Notes: generated from the letters alone by a model not told the origin. A DNA stretch of 38,779 nucleotides from Candidatus Aenigmatarchaeota archaeon (GCA_018304635.1 JAGVVW010000050.1:1-38779); one strand, 5' to 3'. Positions 3,774 to 36,642 are shown, counted from the stretch's first letter. Numbers and translations are program-made.

Positions 3774-4142
3774 TCACGGAGCTTCACTATAGCCGCAGCA
3801 ATAGGTTTGGCATCGTTTGCCAAGTTCCAGCATATTGTTATCAAAATCGCCACTATTCAGAACATTTATACACGCATCCCTCAAGTCTACATCTTCATCA
3901 CCATCAGCATCTTTATCATATCCATTAATTTTTATATCGGGTATTATTATATTCGGATTTGGATTACTTTTACACCCCAGTGCCCGCCACTTTGCACATC
4001 CGATGTTCAATGCATCAGTGTCTGATATTGTTCCTTTGCTCATGCCAAACCCGCCAAGAAAAAACGCACTAATAGATAAAAGAACTGCAACAGCTATGAC
4101 TATGATAACAACCATATTCACCGGCAGGGAAAGCGCTTTCAT
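3774..4142 (-). CDS. Small secreted/pilin-like protein with N-terminal TM segment
   Basis: MKALSLPVNMVVIIVIAVAVLLSISAFFLGG; Cys-containing extracellular part. Confidence 0.6.
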   Translation of the reverse strand: MKALSLPVNMVVIIVIAVAVLLSISAFFLGGFGMSKGTISDTDALNIGCAKWRALGCKSNPNPNIIIPDIKINGYDKDADGDEDVDLRDACINVLNSGDFDNNMLELGKRCQTYCCGYSEAP

Positions 4143-4196: not shown

Positions 4197-4262
4197 TTTT
4201 CTTTTTCCGTTAACCCTTTTTCTTTTTTTAGTGGTTTTGTGGTAAAAAAGAAAAAGGGTTAA
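4197..4262 (-). other. Intron-like hairpin element outside any tRNA
   Basis: Minus strand TTAACCCTTTTTCTTTTTT...AAAAAAGAAAAAGGGTTAACGGAAAAAGAAAA, same layout as the tRNA-Leu intron core. Confidence 0.55.
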
Positions 4263-4325: not shown

Positions 4326-4859
4326 ATGGCAGACCCATTTGCAGCACTCATACAAACTGTTGAAACATTCGGAATTTACAGTTTCTTGCTGCCTTGGTTG
4401 CTTGTATTTGCTATAATATACGGTCTTCTGGTAAAAGTAAAGCCTTTTGGTACTGAAGCTATAGGCACCAGAATAAGCGGGATCGTGGCTTTTGTAATAG
4501 CACTTCTTGTTACTATTGCCGCAGGCCCTGAAATTTCAGCATTTGTGGCAAATATATTCGGTGGTGCTTCAATCTTCATTGCAGGAATTCTGGTTGTAAT
4601 ATTGTTCCTTGCGATGGCAGGATATGATTATAGCAAATTAGGCGAGAATAAATATCTGTTAGCATTCCTTATTATTGTCGCAATCCTTTTATTCATTGCA
4701 TCTGGCGGACTTGGTGCAGGATGGATTGGCTTATCATTAGGAAGCCAAACAGTGGCACTGATATTCGTGCTGATAATTATTCTGGCAGCTGTATGGTTTG
4801 TAACGCGTCCTGAAGCGAAAGCAGAAGCAACTGGTGGCAAACCGAAAGAAGGTGGATAA
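4326..4859 (+). CDS. Multi-TM membrane protein (paralogue 1)
   Basis: 177 aa hydrophobic; GIYSFLLPWLLVFAIIYGLLVKVKPFG. Confidence 0.75.
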   Translation: MADPFAALIQTVETFGIYSFLLPWLLVFAIIYGLLVKVKPFGTEAIGTRISGIVAFVIALLVTIAAGPEISAFVANIFGGASIFIAGILVVILFLAMAGYDYSKLGENKYLLAFLIIVAILLFIASGGLGAGWIGLSLGSQTVALIFVLIIILAAVWFVTRPEAKAEATGGKPKEGG

Positions 4860-31313: not shown

Positions 31314-31347
31314 GCAAATAAAAAGAAAAAGTACGCCGGGAGCAGGA

Positions 31348-31398
31348 ATTCCCCCATCTTTTTCTTTTCAAAGCATTAACGAAAAAGAAAAAGATTGT
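31348..31398 (-). other. tRNA-Ser T-loop intron (51 nt)
   Basis: TTCAA^A ... AT^TCCTGC; internal stem ATCTTTTTCTTTT/AAAAGAAAAAGAT; central helix imperfect. Confidence 0.8.
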
Positions 31399-31417
31399 TT
31401 TGAACCTGCGTGTCAAT

Positions 31418-31465
31418 CCAACAGACGCAAAATCACATGATACTTTGTAACATTTTTGCGTCAAT
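31418..31465 (-). other. tRNA-Ser variable-arm intron (48 nt; boundary ambiguous by a few nt)
   Basis: Hairpin GACGCAAAA/TTTTGCGTC; GATTGAC repeated at both junctions; BHB is non-canonical. Confidence 0.7.
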
Positions 31466-31497
31466 CTATGTGACAGTAGTTTTCGAGACTACCGCGT

Positions 31498-31589
31498 TTA
31501 GCTCCTTTATCAATGCTATAAAATTGATAAATCCTTTTTTTCTCTTTTTCCCAAGGATTTTTCTCTTTATTTAAAAAAGAGAAAAAGGC
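31498..31589 (-). other. tRNA-Ser D-loop intron (92 nt)
   Basis: BHB: central GGTT/AGCT (two G-U), bulges AAG and AAA, inner helix CCTTT/AAAGG. Confidence 0.78.
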
Positions 31590-31759
31590 TTAACCTAGCT
31601 CCGCCATCCCGGCACTTATTAATCATAGAAACTCAGAGACTTTAAAATTATACAATGTTGCGCATTCACATAGTACCTGTAGTAGAAAGGCTTAAAAATC
31701 TTTATAAACCATTCGCAACCATACCTATAATAGCAAAGACGCTTGAACTTTAATGTTCA

Positions 31760-31773
31760 TGACGCATGCGTCA
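31760..31773. promoter_or_regulatory. Perfect 14-bp palindrome TGACGCATGCGTCA
   Basis: Between TATA-like tttataaacc (about 31700) and the start codon at 31803. Confidence 0.4.
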
Positions 31774-31802
31774 AAAATTTCAAATAAGGAGGCAAAAAAT
31801 AA

Positions 31803-32435
31803 ATGTCAGACGTTGTAAGCGTCCTCTCCAGCATTGGAGTGCAGTCAGTGGCTTTCCTTCCAAACCTAATAAGCGCTATTATAATCTTAATAATTGGTTT
31901 GGTATTGGGAAAAATACTAGGACGTGTAATCAAGGAAGTTCTCGTGAGAATAAAACTTGATTATTATGTCACTGAAACACACAAGCCAATAATAAGCCTG
32001 AGTAATTTATTTGCACTGGTAGTGAGATGGTGGGTCTATCTTGCATTCATTGGTGCTGCATTATCCAGAGAAATTCTGGGAATACCAGCATTAGCATCAT
32101 GGATCGGCCAAATAACATCATTTATTCCGAATATAATCGGGGCATCTGCCATTGTGGTAGTTGGCTACATATTAGGTGAATATCTAAAAGCTCAGCTTAT
32201 GAAGACAAAGCAGACATATGCTACACTGGTTGGAAAAGTATTATTCTTTTTCATTCTGTATGTAGCAATTGCACTTGCATTACCTATTTTAGGAGTTCCA
32301 TCAGCACTTGTAAGCAATATATTGCTGATAATCATAGGCTCAGTAGGTGTCGGCATTGCAATAGCACTCGGTCTTGGATTAAAGGATGCTGTAGCAGATA
32401 TCTCCAAGAGATATGCCAAGAAGATGAAAGTTTAG
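31803..32435 (+). CDS. Membrane protein with mechanosensitive-channel-type conserved TM helices
   Basis: LPNLISAIIILIIGLVLGKILGRVIKEVLVRIKLD repeated with a second similar TM unit; SD aaggagg. Confidence 0.7.
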   Translation: MSDVVSVLSSIGVQSVAFLPNLISAIIILIIGLVLGKILGRVIKEVLVRIKLDYYVTETHKPIISLSNLFALVVRWWVYLAFIGAALSREILGIPALASWIGQITSFIPNIIGASAIVVVGYILGEYLKAQLMKTKQTYATLVGKVLFFFILYVAIALALPILGVPSALVSNILLIIIGSVGVGIAIALGLGLKDAVADISKRYAKKMKV

Positions 32436-32506
32436 GATTTTTTATTTTTTAATTCTTTTTTTCTTTTAGTATAGTTTTTAATACTTTTAAGTGGTTATAT
32501 ATAAAT

Positions 32507-33199
32507 ATGGTAGCAAAACCACTTCCGTATACTACGGAACAAAAGAGAGAACTCAGAAGAGAACAGTTCAGGCCTTATCTTAGAATTAGTCCTGACAAAC
32601 CAGAATGGTATGCAACTGTAAGTGATATAGCCGTGAGAATAAGCAATGGAACTGCATACAAGAATATATTAAACATAATTGAAGATCTCGATATAGCTGA
32701 AGAATATAGAAACATGTTAACTGCTCAGGCAATTGCACTTTCTGCAAAGCAGAAGGGTAAACGCACTCATATGTATCCTTCAACCGATGCTGTAACAAAA
32801 GCTGCATATAATTATACAAATGATAATACAGTTGCTGATTTATCTGGGCGTGTTTACGAGTTGCCTGATGTTCTAAACTTATCTGATTATAGAAAGAAAA
32901 ATCCAGAACCTGATATGGAACCGACAGAAACAGAATCTCTTGGAATTATTAATGACAGAAAAGTTGGAATTTATAGAAATCAAAAAAATGCTGCTGGAGA
33001 TAGTGGCGTGGAATACTGGAATGAAAATGATCTGAGATACTATAATGAACTTCAAGCAAGACAATATCATTATAATTACAGGGGTCATGTTGAACCGCAA
33101 AACAGGACTTCAGAATACAAAAGAGCTGAAAACAGGCAGCCGTGGTACAAATGGAACAGCATTAAAGCCGGTTTCAGAAAGCTATTTGGAAGGGAATGA
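32507..33199 (+). CDS. Hypothetical Tyr/Asn-rich protein
   Basis: 230-aa ORF. Confidence 0.55.
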   Translation: MVAKPLPYTTEQKRELRREQFRPYLRISPDKPEWYATVSDIAVRISNGTAYKNILNIIEDLDIAEEYRNMLTAQAIALSAKQKGKRTHMYPSTDAVTKAAYNYTNDNTVADLSGRVYELPDVLNLSDYRKKNPEPDMEPTETESLGIINDRKVGIYRNQKNAAGDSGVEYWNENDLRYYNELQARQYHYNYRGHVEPQNRTSEYKRAENRQPWYKWNSIKAGFRKLFGRE

Positions 33200-33209
33200 T
33201 GAATTTCTT

Positions 33210-33323
33210 GTGGAGGCGAAGGATAAAATATATCAAAGAGATTATGATACAGCGAATTGGGCGTATTATTCCGAGCTTCATCAAAAGCATCTTGAATGGG
33301 CACGCCAAAATATTTTAGGATAG
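33210..33323 (+). CDS. Possible 37-aa protein, GTG start
   Basis: MEAKDKIYQRDYDTANWAYYSELHQKHLEWARQNILG; resembles NDLRYYNELQARQYHY of the preceding ORF. Confidence 0.35.
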   Translation: MEAKDKIYQRDYDTANWAYYSELHQKHLEWARQNILG

Positions 33324-33460
33324 GCTTTTTGGGTACAATCATCTGATTCTTTAAAATTTATATTCTTATTCAAGAATAATAGTATATTGCAAATTGTATC
33401 CGTAATAATTATATATAAACTATGCAATTATTCATAAATAAACTTGCGGTGGTAGTCTAG

Positions 33461-33554
33461 ACATCCTTTTTCTTTTTAAAAGAAAAAGCATGTATGGAAA
33501 AAGAAAATTTTGACTGTTTAACTAAATATTAAATATAGAAGAAGGATAAGACAA
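33461..33554 (+). other. tRNA-Gly D-loop intron (94 nt)
   Basis: Central helix GTCT/AGAC, bulges AGA and AAT, inner helix ATCCTTTTTC/GAAGAAGGAT; internal hairpin CTTTTTCTTTT/AAAAGAAAAAG. Confidence 0.88.
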
Positions 33555-33597
33555 TGGTCAGGATACAGCCTTGCCAAGGCTGTGACCCGGGTTCAAA

Positions 33598-33715
33598 AAA
33601 GCCTTTCTTTCGGAAAAACGATGACATGCTTCGCGTGTCTTTTCGTTGATGAAAGAAATCCTTGGGAAAGAAATAAAAACAAGGATTGACATATAATACT
33701 GTCAGGCTATGAAAT
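33598..33715 (+). other. tRNA-Gly T-loop intron (118 nt)
   Basis: Outer helix CCGGG/CCCGG, central TTCA/TGAA, bulges AAA and ATT, inner AGCCT/AGGCT; splicing restores T-loop TTCAAAT. Confidence 0.92.
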
Positions 33716-33894
33716 TCCCGGCCATCGCATTGCTGCCCTTTCTTTTTCGTAAAGCCATGATGCACCTTGAAAAATGTTTCAAGTGCATCTTACGTTTTTG
33801 AAAAGAAAGTGTAAGTTGCTCAAAGAAAAGAAATAATTGGCAATTCCAATGCTATCAGATTGATTTTGCTAAACATAACAGGACGGTATAATCC

Positions 33895-34515
33895 ATGGTA
33901 TTTTCAGAGATAATGACTATTCTTGGCGGATTTGCATTGTTATTGATAACGTCTTTTGGTTATATTGGCATTTTTTTTCTCATGGTACTGGAAAGCATGA
34001 TATTCCCGATGCCGTCTGAACTTGTAATGCCGTTTGCGGGGTTTGCTGCATCACAGGGTAGTCTTGATTTTATGCTTGTCATTATATCCAGTACATTAGG
34101 CAGTATTGTTGGCTCACTTTTGTCATATTATATGGGTATGAAAGGCGGCCACTATTTTATCAAAAAATATGGTAAGTATTTTATGATAGAAGAACATGTG
34201 CTGGATAAAACAGAGAATATATTCAAAAGAAAAGGCGGGCGGGCAGTTCTGATAAGCAGATTTATCCCAGCAGTACGCCATGTAATTTCAATATTTGCCG
34301 GAATCGGAAAAATGGATATCAAGAAATTTATAGTGTATACAATAATCGGTGCAGCAGCATGGAATACCTTTCTTGCATATATCGGATTTGAGCTTGGTCA
34401 GCATTGGAATATTGTAAGACAATATACAGAACCGATATCACTGATAGTAGTGATAATCATTGTATTATTTGTTGTTTATTTTTATTTTAAGCATTTCAGA
34501 AAAAAAGAAAAGTAA
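33895..34515 (+). CDS. DedA-family membrane protein
   Basis: FLMVLESMIFPMPSELVMPFAGF, RFIPAVRHVISIFAGIGKM. Confidence 0.85.
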   Translation: MVFSEIMTILGGFALLLITSFGYIGIFFLMVLESMIFPMPSELVMPFAGFAASQGSLDFMLVIISSTLGSIVGSLLSYYMGMKGGHYFIKKYGKYFMIEEHVLDKTENIFKRKGGRAVLISRFIPAVRHVISIFAGIGKMDIKKFIVYTIIGAAAWNTFLAYIGFELGQHWNIVRQYTEPISLIVVIIIVLFVVYFYFKHFRKKEK

Positions 34516-34574
34516 AATATTATAGTGGGTTCGAATCTGCTTAAAATTATGATAATATCAAAGGGGGTGTAAAA

Positions 34575-35162
34575 ATGAATTCTCTGCCTATGACAAGAGA
34601 AGATGCTGTTAATTTGCTGAAAAGCATGCCGCAGACAGATTCTGACATGAATCACTATTTAGAAACAGAGTCCATTATGAGAATTTTGGCTGAAAAATTC
34701 AATGAAGATGCTGAATACTGGGGCATGGTGGGCTTGCTTCATGATGTTGACTGGTCATCAACAAGAGATAACCCAAAAGAACATTGCATTAAAGCAGCAG
34801 ATATTCTGAAAACCAGAGGATTTGATAATGTCTTTATAGAAAATGTGCAATCCCACGGATATGGCTATGATGGAATTCCGGCATTCAAAAACAGAAAAAG
34901 AAACTCAAAAATACAGTATGCTCTTGTTGCTGCTGAGACCGTAACTGGAGTAATTTATGCATATGCATTAATGCGGGGGAAAAATATTTCTGATATGGAA
35001 GTCAAAGGGCTGAAGAAAAAATTCATTGATAAAAGTTTTGCTGCTAATTGCAGCAGAGAATTAGTCAGAGAAATAGAAACAACTGGCTTGTCTCTGGATG
35101 AATTTTTTGCTTTATCTATAATGGCTGTTAAAAAAATAAAAGACCAGATCGGTCTGAAATAA
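34575..35162 (+). CDS. HD-domain hydrolase
   Basis: H...GLLHDVDW...EHCIKAADIL...VQSHGY. Confidence 0.8.
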   Translation: MNSLPMTREDAVNLLKSMPQTDSDMNHYLETESIMRILAEKFNEDAEYWGMVGLLHDVDWSSTRDNPKEHCIKAADILKTRGFDNVFIENVQSHGYGYDGIPAFKNRKRNSKIQYALVAAETVTGVIYAYALMRGKNISDMEVKGLKKKFIDKSFAANCSRELVREIETTGLSLDEFFALSIMAVKKIKDQIGLK

Positions 35163-35217
35163 AACATTATGCAATTCAGGCAACTTAAACTTTTAAACTT
35201 GCAATACAAATATTAAT

Positions 35218-35649
35218 ATGATATTTTCAGGAAAAAGGGATGATATGCACGAAATAAAGAGAAATATTATGATGGATGATGAGGAAATTGCCCAGTTGCA
35301 GGATGTGCCTGTAAATACAGCTCCTTTATTTGTTAAAATAGAACGGTATCAGGATGTCATAACTCATGTTAATGACATGCGGACATTTATTTCCGGGCTG
35401 AAGCACATTTTCACTTTAATGAGTGAGATTGAAAATATACGAACTGATACGCTGAAAATTATGCGTGCCAGCGTACAGAGGCTTGAACGCAGCGTGTCAG
35501 AATTGGATAGTATGATGCTCAGACCTGGGGGCGTGCCGTTTACAGAACCTGTAAGACAGGGTAAAGAACTTGGAAATGTAGAAGACGCACTACTTGAACT
35601 GCAAAAACAACTTTCTGATTTGAGACGGGAACTGCAGGATGTTAGATAG
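35218..35649 (+). CDS. Coiled-coil hypothetical protein
   Basis: 143-aa ORF; start may be 35245. Confidence 0.6.
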   Translation: MIFSGKRDDMHEIKRNIMMDDEEIAQLQDVPVNTAPLFVKIERYQDVITHVNDMRTFISGLKHIFTLMSEIENIRTDTLKIMRASVQRLERSVSELDSMMLRPGGVPFTEPVRQGKELGNVEDALLELQKQLSDLRRELQDVR

Positions 35650-35848
35650 AGCCTTTTTGGAGAAATAGTGTTGTTGAAATTCATGATTTTTCATCTATCA
35701 AAAACCCTCGGGAAAAATATCAGAATTGCAAAATTTCGGGTGAAAACTTCTGGAAGAGGCTGATTGATTCGATACGTTGCCCATTAAATTCTTTATTAAT
35801 TTAATTCGGGACTGTATTAACTACTATAAAGAGCGAATGCGATATTGA

Positions 35849-36135
35849 TTGCTGCCGAAGGCAGCAATATTTGCAAAGCATGGAATTGAAGGCTTGCAAG
35901 ACCTACCAAGACCCGGAAAGCCTTGTATCTATGGACATGATACACACACAGAATTCTTGTCGTTTGTAAAAGATGTCTACAAAAAATGGGGCAGAAAGAA
36001 AGAACTCCATTTCGTTATCGATAATTTTTCAGCACACAAACACAAGGATGTCATGAAATGGGTATTGAAAATTATAATGAAAAAGCAAAACCTTTTGCTT
36101 GGACATACCAAGGAAAACCGCTAAAAATTAATTAA
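35849..36135 (+). pseudogene. Decayed IS630-family transposase (internal deletion plus frameshift)
   Basis: GIEGLQDLPRPGKP (N-terminal HTH end) runs into HFVIDNFSAHKHKDV (catalytic C-terminal part); C-terminus YNEKAKPFAWTYQGKPLKIN* is in another frame. Confidence 0.75.
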
Positions 36136-36176
36136 GGATTTTAGGGGACTATGTATTAGATATGCGAGGGGCAGGA

Positions 36177-36313
36177 GTTTCACCACCAACCTTTTTTCGA
36201 GATCAAAGGTTGTGCCTACGAAAAAACGTTGACGAAAAATATATTATTATAATAATATTTTTCTAATGTTTTTCTTTCCGAGCACGCTTTCTTTTTACAA
36301 AAAGAAAGGGTGC
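36177..36313 (-). other. tRNA-Leu T-loop intron (137 nt)
   Basis: Outer GCAGG/CCTGC, central TTCA/TGAA, bulges AAG and ACT; splicing gives TTCAAAT. Confidence 0.88.
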
Positions 36314-36345
36314 TTTGAACCTGCGAACTCACTGAGAGACAGGAT

Positions 36346-36418
36346 TTCTTATTTTTAATAGAAAACACAGAATATTGTTTTCTTTCCGTTCACGCTTTCT
36401 TTGATAAAGAAAGGGTGA
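36346..36418 (-). other. tRNA-Leu anticodon-loop intron, canonical 37/38 position (73 nt)
   Basis: Outer CAGGA/TCCTG, central CTCA/TAAG (one C-A mismatch), bulges AGT and AAA. Confidence 0.82.
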
Positions 36419-36435
36419 CTTGAGTCCTGCGCCTT

Positions 36436-36484
36436 TTTCTATAACTCTTTCCGTCAACGCTTTTTGCGAAGCAAAAAGAGTTGG
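36436..36484 (-). other. tRNA-Leu D-loop intron (49 nt)
   Basis: Central TCTG/TAGA, bulges GTC and AAA, inner AACTC/GAGTT, hairpin CTTTTTGC TTC GCAAAAAG. Confidence 0.85.
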
Positions 36485-36642
36485 ACCAGACTTGGCTACC
36501 CTCGCGATATAATTATTTGGGATGATATTTTTTAATGCATTAAAACCAATATAAAACAATGAAATCAGGGCTGAATTTATTTTTGGTAAAGACAATGAAT
36601 CAATTCAAGCCATGAAATTAGAGTGTGTTGATACCTTTTAAA

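Follow-up and report, generated by a model that had tools for sequence, protein, structure and literature searches.

We found that the tRNA genes of this DNA are interrupted by introns which are in all likelihood of the archaeal BHB type and derive from a dispersed hairpin repeat now present in tRNA genes, in the SRP RNA gene and in intergenic DNA. At the T-loop site 59/60, tRNA base 57 covaries with base -6 of the intron. We regard this as a real and well-supported variant on the known BHB tRNA introns, with an unusually clean rule. The window (the whole stretch of 38,779 nt analyzed here) is contig C4 of a Parvarchaeota MAG assembly (G000, 1.08 Mb, 88% complete); it was placed in a Parvarchaeota genome by FEN1, whose closest matches are Parvarchaeota MAGs with 44–47% identity. 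The genomes compared are likewise draft MAGs, and some introns sit at contig ends (C31/C36).

No tRNA was found in the whole window by ARAGORN, or by Rfam at the gathering threshold. At E ≤ 0.01 the Rfam tRNA model gave 8 tRNAs in the window's genome, 5 in the sister genome G001 and as many as 35 in a genome of the same order that is poor in introns. We recovered tRNAs by a GGTTCRAA search together with a script demanding a T-stem and an acceptor stem, and examined the stretches of the window's genome surrounding candidate tRNAs and repeats. As a result, 36 tRNAs were obtained, 24 of which carry an intron at 59/60; this supplies the census of T-loop introns that the first-pass annotation had proposed. 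By spliced alignment 34 of 35 tRNAs possess at least one intron anywhere, and the one remaining tRNA (contig C30) is interrupted in its T-loop, which brings the figure to 35 of 36. One further tRNA is split across contigs C31/C36, with the break within its T-loop intron. Reference-based spliced alignment gets the register of certain Ser, Arg, Phe and T-loop boundaries wrong by a few nucleotides or more, and T-loop intron boundaries were set by T-stem pairing in its place. Since tRNA finders overlook most tRNAs in such intron-rich genomes, tRNA-based claims on these archaea, for example on missing tRNAs or completeness, are unsafe.

The three tRNA genes of the window, for Ser(CGA), Gly(GCC) and Leu(CAA), were read from the sequence and with the T-stem/acceptor script. 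Each has an intron at exactly 59/60 as well as a D-loop intron:

31335–31613, minus strand: tRNA-Ser(CGA) gene with D-loop, variable-arm and T-loop introns; acceptor GCCGGGA/TCCCGGC, anticodon loop CTCGAAA, T-stem GCAGG/CCTGC
31348–31398, minus strand: Ser T-loop intron at 59/60, 51 nt, of the 50–51-nt family; central helix TTCA:GGGA with 3/4 pairs; layout GCAGG TTCAAA (51-nt intron, 31398–31348) T CCTGC
31498–31589, minus strand: Ser D-loop intron; boundaries inferred by hand from the BHB GGTT:AGCT with bulges AA|G and AA|A
31421–31463, minus strand: Ser variable-arm intron, boundaries approximate; inner helix GACGCAAAA/TTTTGCGTC
33446–33728, plus strand: tRNA-Gly(GCC) gene with D-loop and T-loop introns
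33461–33554, plus strand: Gly D-loop intron after position 15, hand-read, with central helix GTCT(10–13):AGAC and bulges AG|A and AA|T; the script places its 3' end 1 base earlier
33598–33715, plus strand: Gly T-loop intron at 59/60, 118 nt; TTCA:TGAA with 4/4 pairs; layout CCGGG TTCAAA (118-nt intron, 33598–33715) T CCCGG
36164–36505, minus strand: tRNA-Leu(CAA) gene with D-loop, 37/38 and T-loop introns
36177–36313, minus strand: Leu T-loop intron at 59/60, 137 nt; TTCA:TGAA with 4/4 pairs; layout GCAGG TTCAAA (137-nt intron, 36313–36177) T CCTGC
36346–36418, minus strand: Leu canonical anticodon-loop intron at 37/38, 73 nt, from spliced alignment
36437–36483, minus strand: Leu D-loop intron, 47 nt, containing the repeat motif AAAGCGTTGACGGAAA

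Removal of the introns restores the cloverleaf, as judged by spliced alignment to relatives' tRNAs and by acceptor and T-stem complementarity, and Rfam at its gathering threshold detected no group I or group II catalytic core within the window. The first-pass annotation had described the T-loops of Gly, Leu and Ser as split at one and the same nucleotide (after TTCAAA and before T), with intron positions -6 to -3 reading TGAA in both Gly and Leu but GGGA in Ser; T-stem and acceptor pairing places the split at 59/60 in all three, and the intron ends are read directly as described. This register is not due to chance, because the complementary T-stem and the 6–7 bp acceptor stem fix it and 4/4 pairing is far above background.

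To define the pairing more generally we used 54 T-loop (59/60) introns from 7 Parvarchaeales genomes. Bases 57 and -6 form A-T in 29 and G-C in 12 of them, and A-C or G-T in none (Fisher 1.3e-10). With similar introns clustered and each cluster counted once, the numbers are 17, 11, 0 and 0 (5e-8). This covariation indicates that the TTC(R):(Y)GAA pairing is under selection. Intron positions -5 to -3 are GAA in nearly all 54, pairing with TTC. The central helix with TTCR has 4/4 pairs in 39 of the 54 introns and 3/4 in 13, and the corresponding background from all 4-mers in the same introns is 3.2% and 15%; moreover, a one-base slide of the register destroys the signal. A second set of 25 strings came from a class-wide pattern search with Y unrestricted, in which strings were chosen by the intron inner helix without regard to -6. 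It gave A-T 15, G-C 9, G-T 1 and A-C 0 (5e-6), leaves out five genomes that provide most of the first set, and overlaps with it in that 5 of the 25 strings come from G004 and G010, each of which contributed one intron to the 54.

Introns with a purine at -6 opposite R57 amount to 13 of 54 (A-G 8, G-A 3, G-G 1, A-A 1), most of them in the window's genome. They mainly retain TTC:GAA and need a relaxed BHB or another register. One of them, L077, reads AACA in the register used here. Two families illustrate how intron ends relate to their hosts. Among near-identical 84-nt introns of G012, the one in a TTCAAA host (L258) has TGAAAT as its last bases and those in two TTCGAA hosts (L261 and L267) have CGAAAT, whereas the 50–51-nt family of the window's genome ends in GGAA or GGGA, forms three pairs and occurs in both A57 and G57 hosts. 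Thus, both tuned and generalist intron ends exist.

The idea that the T-loop is a pre-made BHB half-site, advanced in the first-pass annotation, is borne out by the 57/-6 covariation, but its formula TTCA:TGAA was too narrow, as TTCG hosts use CGAA; the rule is TTCR:YGAA with Y matched to R57. T-loop introns lacking the TTCA pairing, which the annotation had named as evidence against itself, do occur in part: among 23 tabulated in the window's genome, 11 pair 4/4, 10 keep 3/4 (mostly with GGAA-type ends) and two are worse. Its further suggestion that any insert ending in TGAANNT could be spliced finds no support, because nearly all inserts come from one repeat family. Their shared start, hairpin and inner helix make a defined mobile element plus a half-site the better reading.

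The proposed mechanism is as follows. The mature tRNA would supply the outer helix (T-stem 49–53/61–65), the 5' strand of the central helix (54–57, TTCR) and, with 58–59, the first two bases of the 5' bulge. The intron would supply YGAA at -6 to -3, the 3' bulge (the two bases preceding T60) and, from its own ends, an inner helix. The cuts, one following 59 and the other preceding 60, would presumably be made by EndA, with RtcB ligating the exons. One intron could serve many hosts because TTCR is common to nearly all tRNAs. A new copy would form three or more central pairs (TTC:GAA) from the outset and later be tuned at -6 to the R57 of its host, or it may arrive already matched. The introns show the BHB arrangement of two 3-nt bulges on opposite strands with a 4-bp helix between them, an exon-exon outer helix and an intron-intron inner helix, and it is relaxed in about one quarter. 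In minimum-energy folds the T-stem is kept in 54 of 54, and at least three central pairs are formed in 26 of 54. We count against this explanation both the absence of the central helix from about half of the minimum-energy structures and the 13 of 54 introns with a purine at -6.

Common to the introns are a start of the form NNARCC(C)TTT (also NNARCC/ATC) on the 5' side and a hairpin that is T-rich/A-rich; a tail, for example ACGGAAA, is frequent. The opening bases of the intron are, in many copies, complementary to those just past the hairpin, e.g. GCAC/GTGC and TCAC/GTGA in Leu and ACAT/ATGT in Gly; the Leu T-loop intron holds one hairpin element forward and a second in reverse orientation. 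Genome-wide, the motif AAAGCGTTRACGGAAA is matched 39 times and a reversed control pattern twice. The 39 include 17 inside tRNA genes that together make up 7.9 kb, two in the contig-split tRNA and one in the SRP RNA gene, with the rest elsewhere, and some copies outside RNA genes are tandem units of about 60 nt. The window contains one clear intergenic copy:

4199–4262, minus strand: hairpin repeat copy outside any RNA gene, between ORFs 3774–4142 (minus) and 4326–4859 (plus); TAACCCTTTTTCTTTTTT...AAAAAAGAAAAAGGGTTAACGGAAAAAG

Members of the repeat family occur in introns of the T-, D- and anticodon loops, in the SRP RNA gene and between genes. In the SRP RNA (RF01857, 82 bits, E 5.5e-17) the same repeat interrupts the 5' domain as a predicted intron, with the hand-read BHB CCTG:CAGG. 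Near-identical introns were also found in different genes at equivalent sites, as expected of mobile introns: the 50–51-nt family at 59/60 of five tRNAs of G000 (Glu, Ser, Ser, Leu and one without assigned identity), the 84-nt family in three tRNAs of G012, and 53- and 59-nt families in G007. We give an even chance to the more specific view that the Parvarchaeales repeat is a mobile element camouflaged by splicing, intergenic in some places and a BHB intron in tRNA and SRP RNA in others, its motif completed by TTCR (in the D-arm probably by 10–13), which would be why it is tolerated in essential RNA genes, and each copy retuned at -6 to its host.

For D-loop introns a strict BHB scan proved too narrow, and a scan based on the inner helix was used instead. 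At 15/16, 4/4 pairs were found in 6 of 18 introns versus 1.7 after host shuffling, which is suggestive. On this weaker evidence, D-loop introns at 15/16 appear to use positions 10–13 (GTCT or GCTC) as T-loop introns use TTCR, so the T-loop is probably the best, yet not the sole, ready-made half-site.

A splicing endonuclease is encoded in the window's genome by one EndA gene (186 aa, N- and C-domains). Its closest PDB match is the tRNA endonuclease 1a79, and it has a loop insertion in common with N. equitans chain 3iey_A. A search of this genome for a second EndA subunit returned only the one gene, whose product resembles a single subunit of alpha type; in two other genomes a further two-domain EndA of 410–418 aa occurs. 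Alpha4 EndA enzymes are described as strict, and many D-loop introns look relaxed, which is at odds with an enzyme of that type. As to candidate movers, a Y1 transposase is present only as a fragment in G000 and at full length in G001, and is absent from G002, G007 and G012, all of which have T-loop introns. We rejected it since its distribution does not track the introns; in REP/Y1-transposase (RAYT, IS200/IS605) systems a transposase accompanies the repeats wherever they occur, and this is not the pattern here. A reverse transcriptase occurs in G001, and RVT_1 had no match in G000, G002, G007 or G012, so this candidate was likewise set aside.

Several other explanations were weighed. If the 59/60 introns were old and vertically inherited, R57 and -6 would agree by descent within each tRNA, and indeed some introns are confined to one tRNA and the Glu copies in G001 share an intron. 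However, near-identical introns lie in tRNAs of different identity with -6 switched per host (G012), the covariation survives one count per intron cluster, and the repeat is found outside tRNAs too, all of which makes vertical descent very unlikely. A transposable element targeting TTCAA-like DNA, e.g. by IS200/IS605-type single-strand transposition, would turn the pairing into a side effect, and splicing might not occur at all. It would be in keeping with a hairpin element whose tail is constant and whose copies are dispersed, and with the Y1 transposase of G000 (fragment) and G001 (full), but intron-bearing G002, G007 and G012 have none. Moreover, the D-loop, anticodon and SRP insertion sites are without TTCAA, targeting by itself leaves the match of -6 with R57 unexplained, and two thirds of the tRNAs interrupted without splicing would be lethal; we hold this account to be highly improbable.

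Spread of the T-loop inserts via reverse splicing, reverse transcription and recombination of pre-tRNA copies would agree with the exact 59/60 placement and both exons being intact. It leaves the intergenic copies unexplained and meets the lack of RVT_1 matches in four genomes, although the enzyme may lie in a host cell or in missing sequence, and we judge it unlikely. That the window's three loci should be tRNA pseudogenes, or products of faulty assembly, is scarcely credible: ARAGORN and Rfam are blank there, but Gly and Leu, once spliced, give good alignments with the tRNAs of relatives and have their acceptor, anticodon and T arms intact, the same architecture recurs in 24 of 36 tRNAs here and in independent genomes, and the genome would lack most tRNAs if such genes were discounted. 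We thus prefer BHB introns derived from the dispersed hairpin repeat.

This reading bears on how archaeal tRNA introns gain new hosts, that is, how inserts settle in new genes without killing the cell. With a single-base 57/-6 rule, recent copies matching different hosts and the repeat outside tRNAs, intron gain becomes testable by enzyme assay and strain comparison. The 57/-6 covariation, the retuning to hosts and the link between introns and intergenic repeats look new; in the literature, chiefly open access, we found neither a description of tRNA introns in Parvarchaeales nor any mention of 57/-6 covariation or of repeats from an intron family lying outside tRNAs. The 59/60 site had been described before, as had BHB introns and the transposition of tRNA introns. 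Introns at 59/60 reportedly stand in the position tables of Sugahara 2007 and of Marck and Grosjean 2003.

In archaea, noncanonical BHB introns, including T-loop ones, and several introns per tRNA have been described, as has intron transposition in Thermoproteales (PMC4090602, PMC4033280, PMC3218864, PMC6379350). Chan 2011 (PMC3218864), and Fujishima 2010 as cited in PMC4090602 and PMC4033280, report large-scale transposition in Pyrobaculum and Thermofilum, with more than 70 introns in P. calidifontis. Both systems have BHB introns in several arms, several per tRNA, and similar introns in different tRNAs; ours differs in its Parvarchaeales lineage, the dominance of a single T-loop site, the repeat family in SRP RNA and between genes, and the 57/-6 covariation. 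Permuted tRNA genes of Thermofilum pendens and Cyanidioschyzon merolae also join at 59/60 (PMC3218864, PMC3978253), with a BHB built with the T-stem, whereas the genes here keep their normal order and are interrupted by an intron rather than a permutation linker. In the Asgard Atabeyarchaeia and Freyarchaeia, 92–95% of tRNAs have introns, often noncanonical, so nearly the whole tRNA set is interrupted as it is here, but these belong to a different phylum, and the T-loop rule and the repeat family are not noted for them in the portions of PMC11291895 consulted. Finally, Thermoproteus SRP RNA is matured via a BHB and the permuted RNA is circularised (PMC4731332); the SRP RNA described here has a predicted BHB as well, which in this case would delimit an internal repeat-family intron in the 5' domain and not a circularised permuted RNA.

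A copy of the hairpin repeat found in the tRNA introns splits the SRP RNA gene in its 5' domain (1427-1800 of locus L214, contig C8 of the genome of the window), and the BHB of this insert, read by hand, has the pairing CCTG:CAGG and two bulges, TT|A and AA|A. Repeat units of about 60 nt are also arrayed between genes at two loci of this genome (L220, C41:23375; L231, C36:16725), where the arrays lie a few bases from an apparent start codon on the opposite strand. The T-loop intron of tRNA-Thr (L268 / L003), 171 nt in length, consists of almost three tandem copies of the repeat, every one opening with ACAACCC; it is as if successive insertions had entered one half-site.

Immediately 3' of tRNA-Gly, an additional intron-like element (window 33735-33850) resembles the D-loop intron of a Gln tRNA (L006). 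GCATTG/CAATGC lie on either side of it, and a canonical BHB is not clear in this element. An ORF adjoining tRNA-Leu (window 35849-36124), which includes ...VIDNFSAHKHKDVMKWV..., looks like the remains of a DDE transposase of the IS630 type.

Two other genomes, both members of one family, encode, in addition to the usual EndA, a second protein of 410-418 aa with two tRNA_int_endo matches (G005 C50:15353 and G010 C2:48292), possibly an EndA of the alpha'2 or epsilon2 type.
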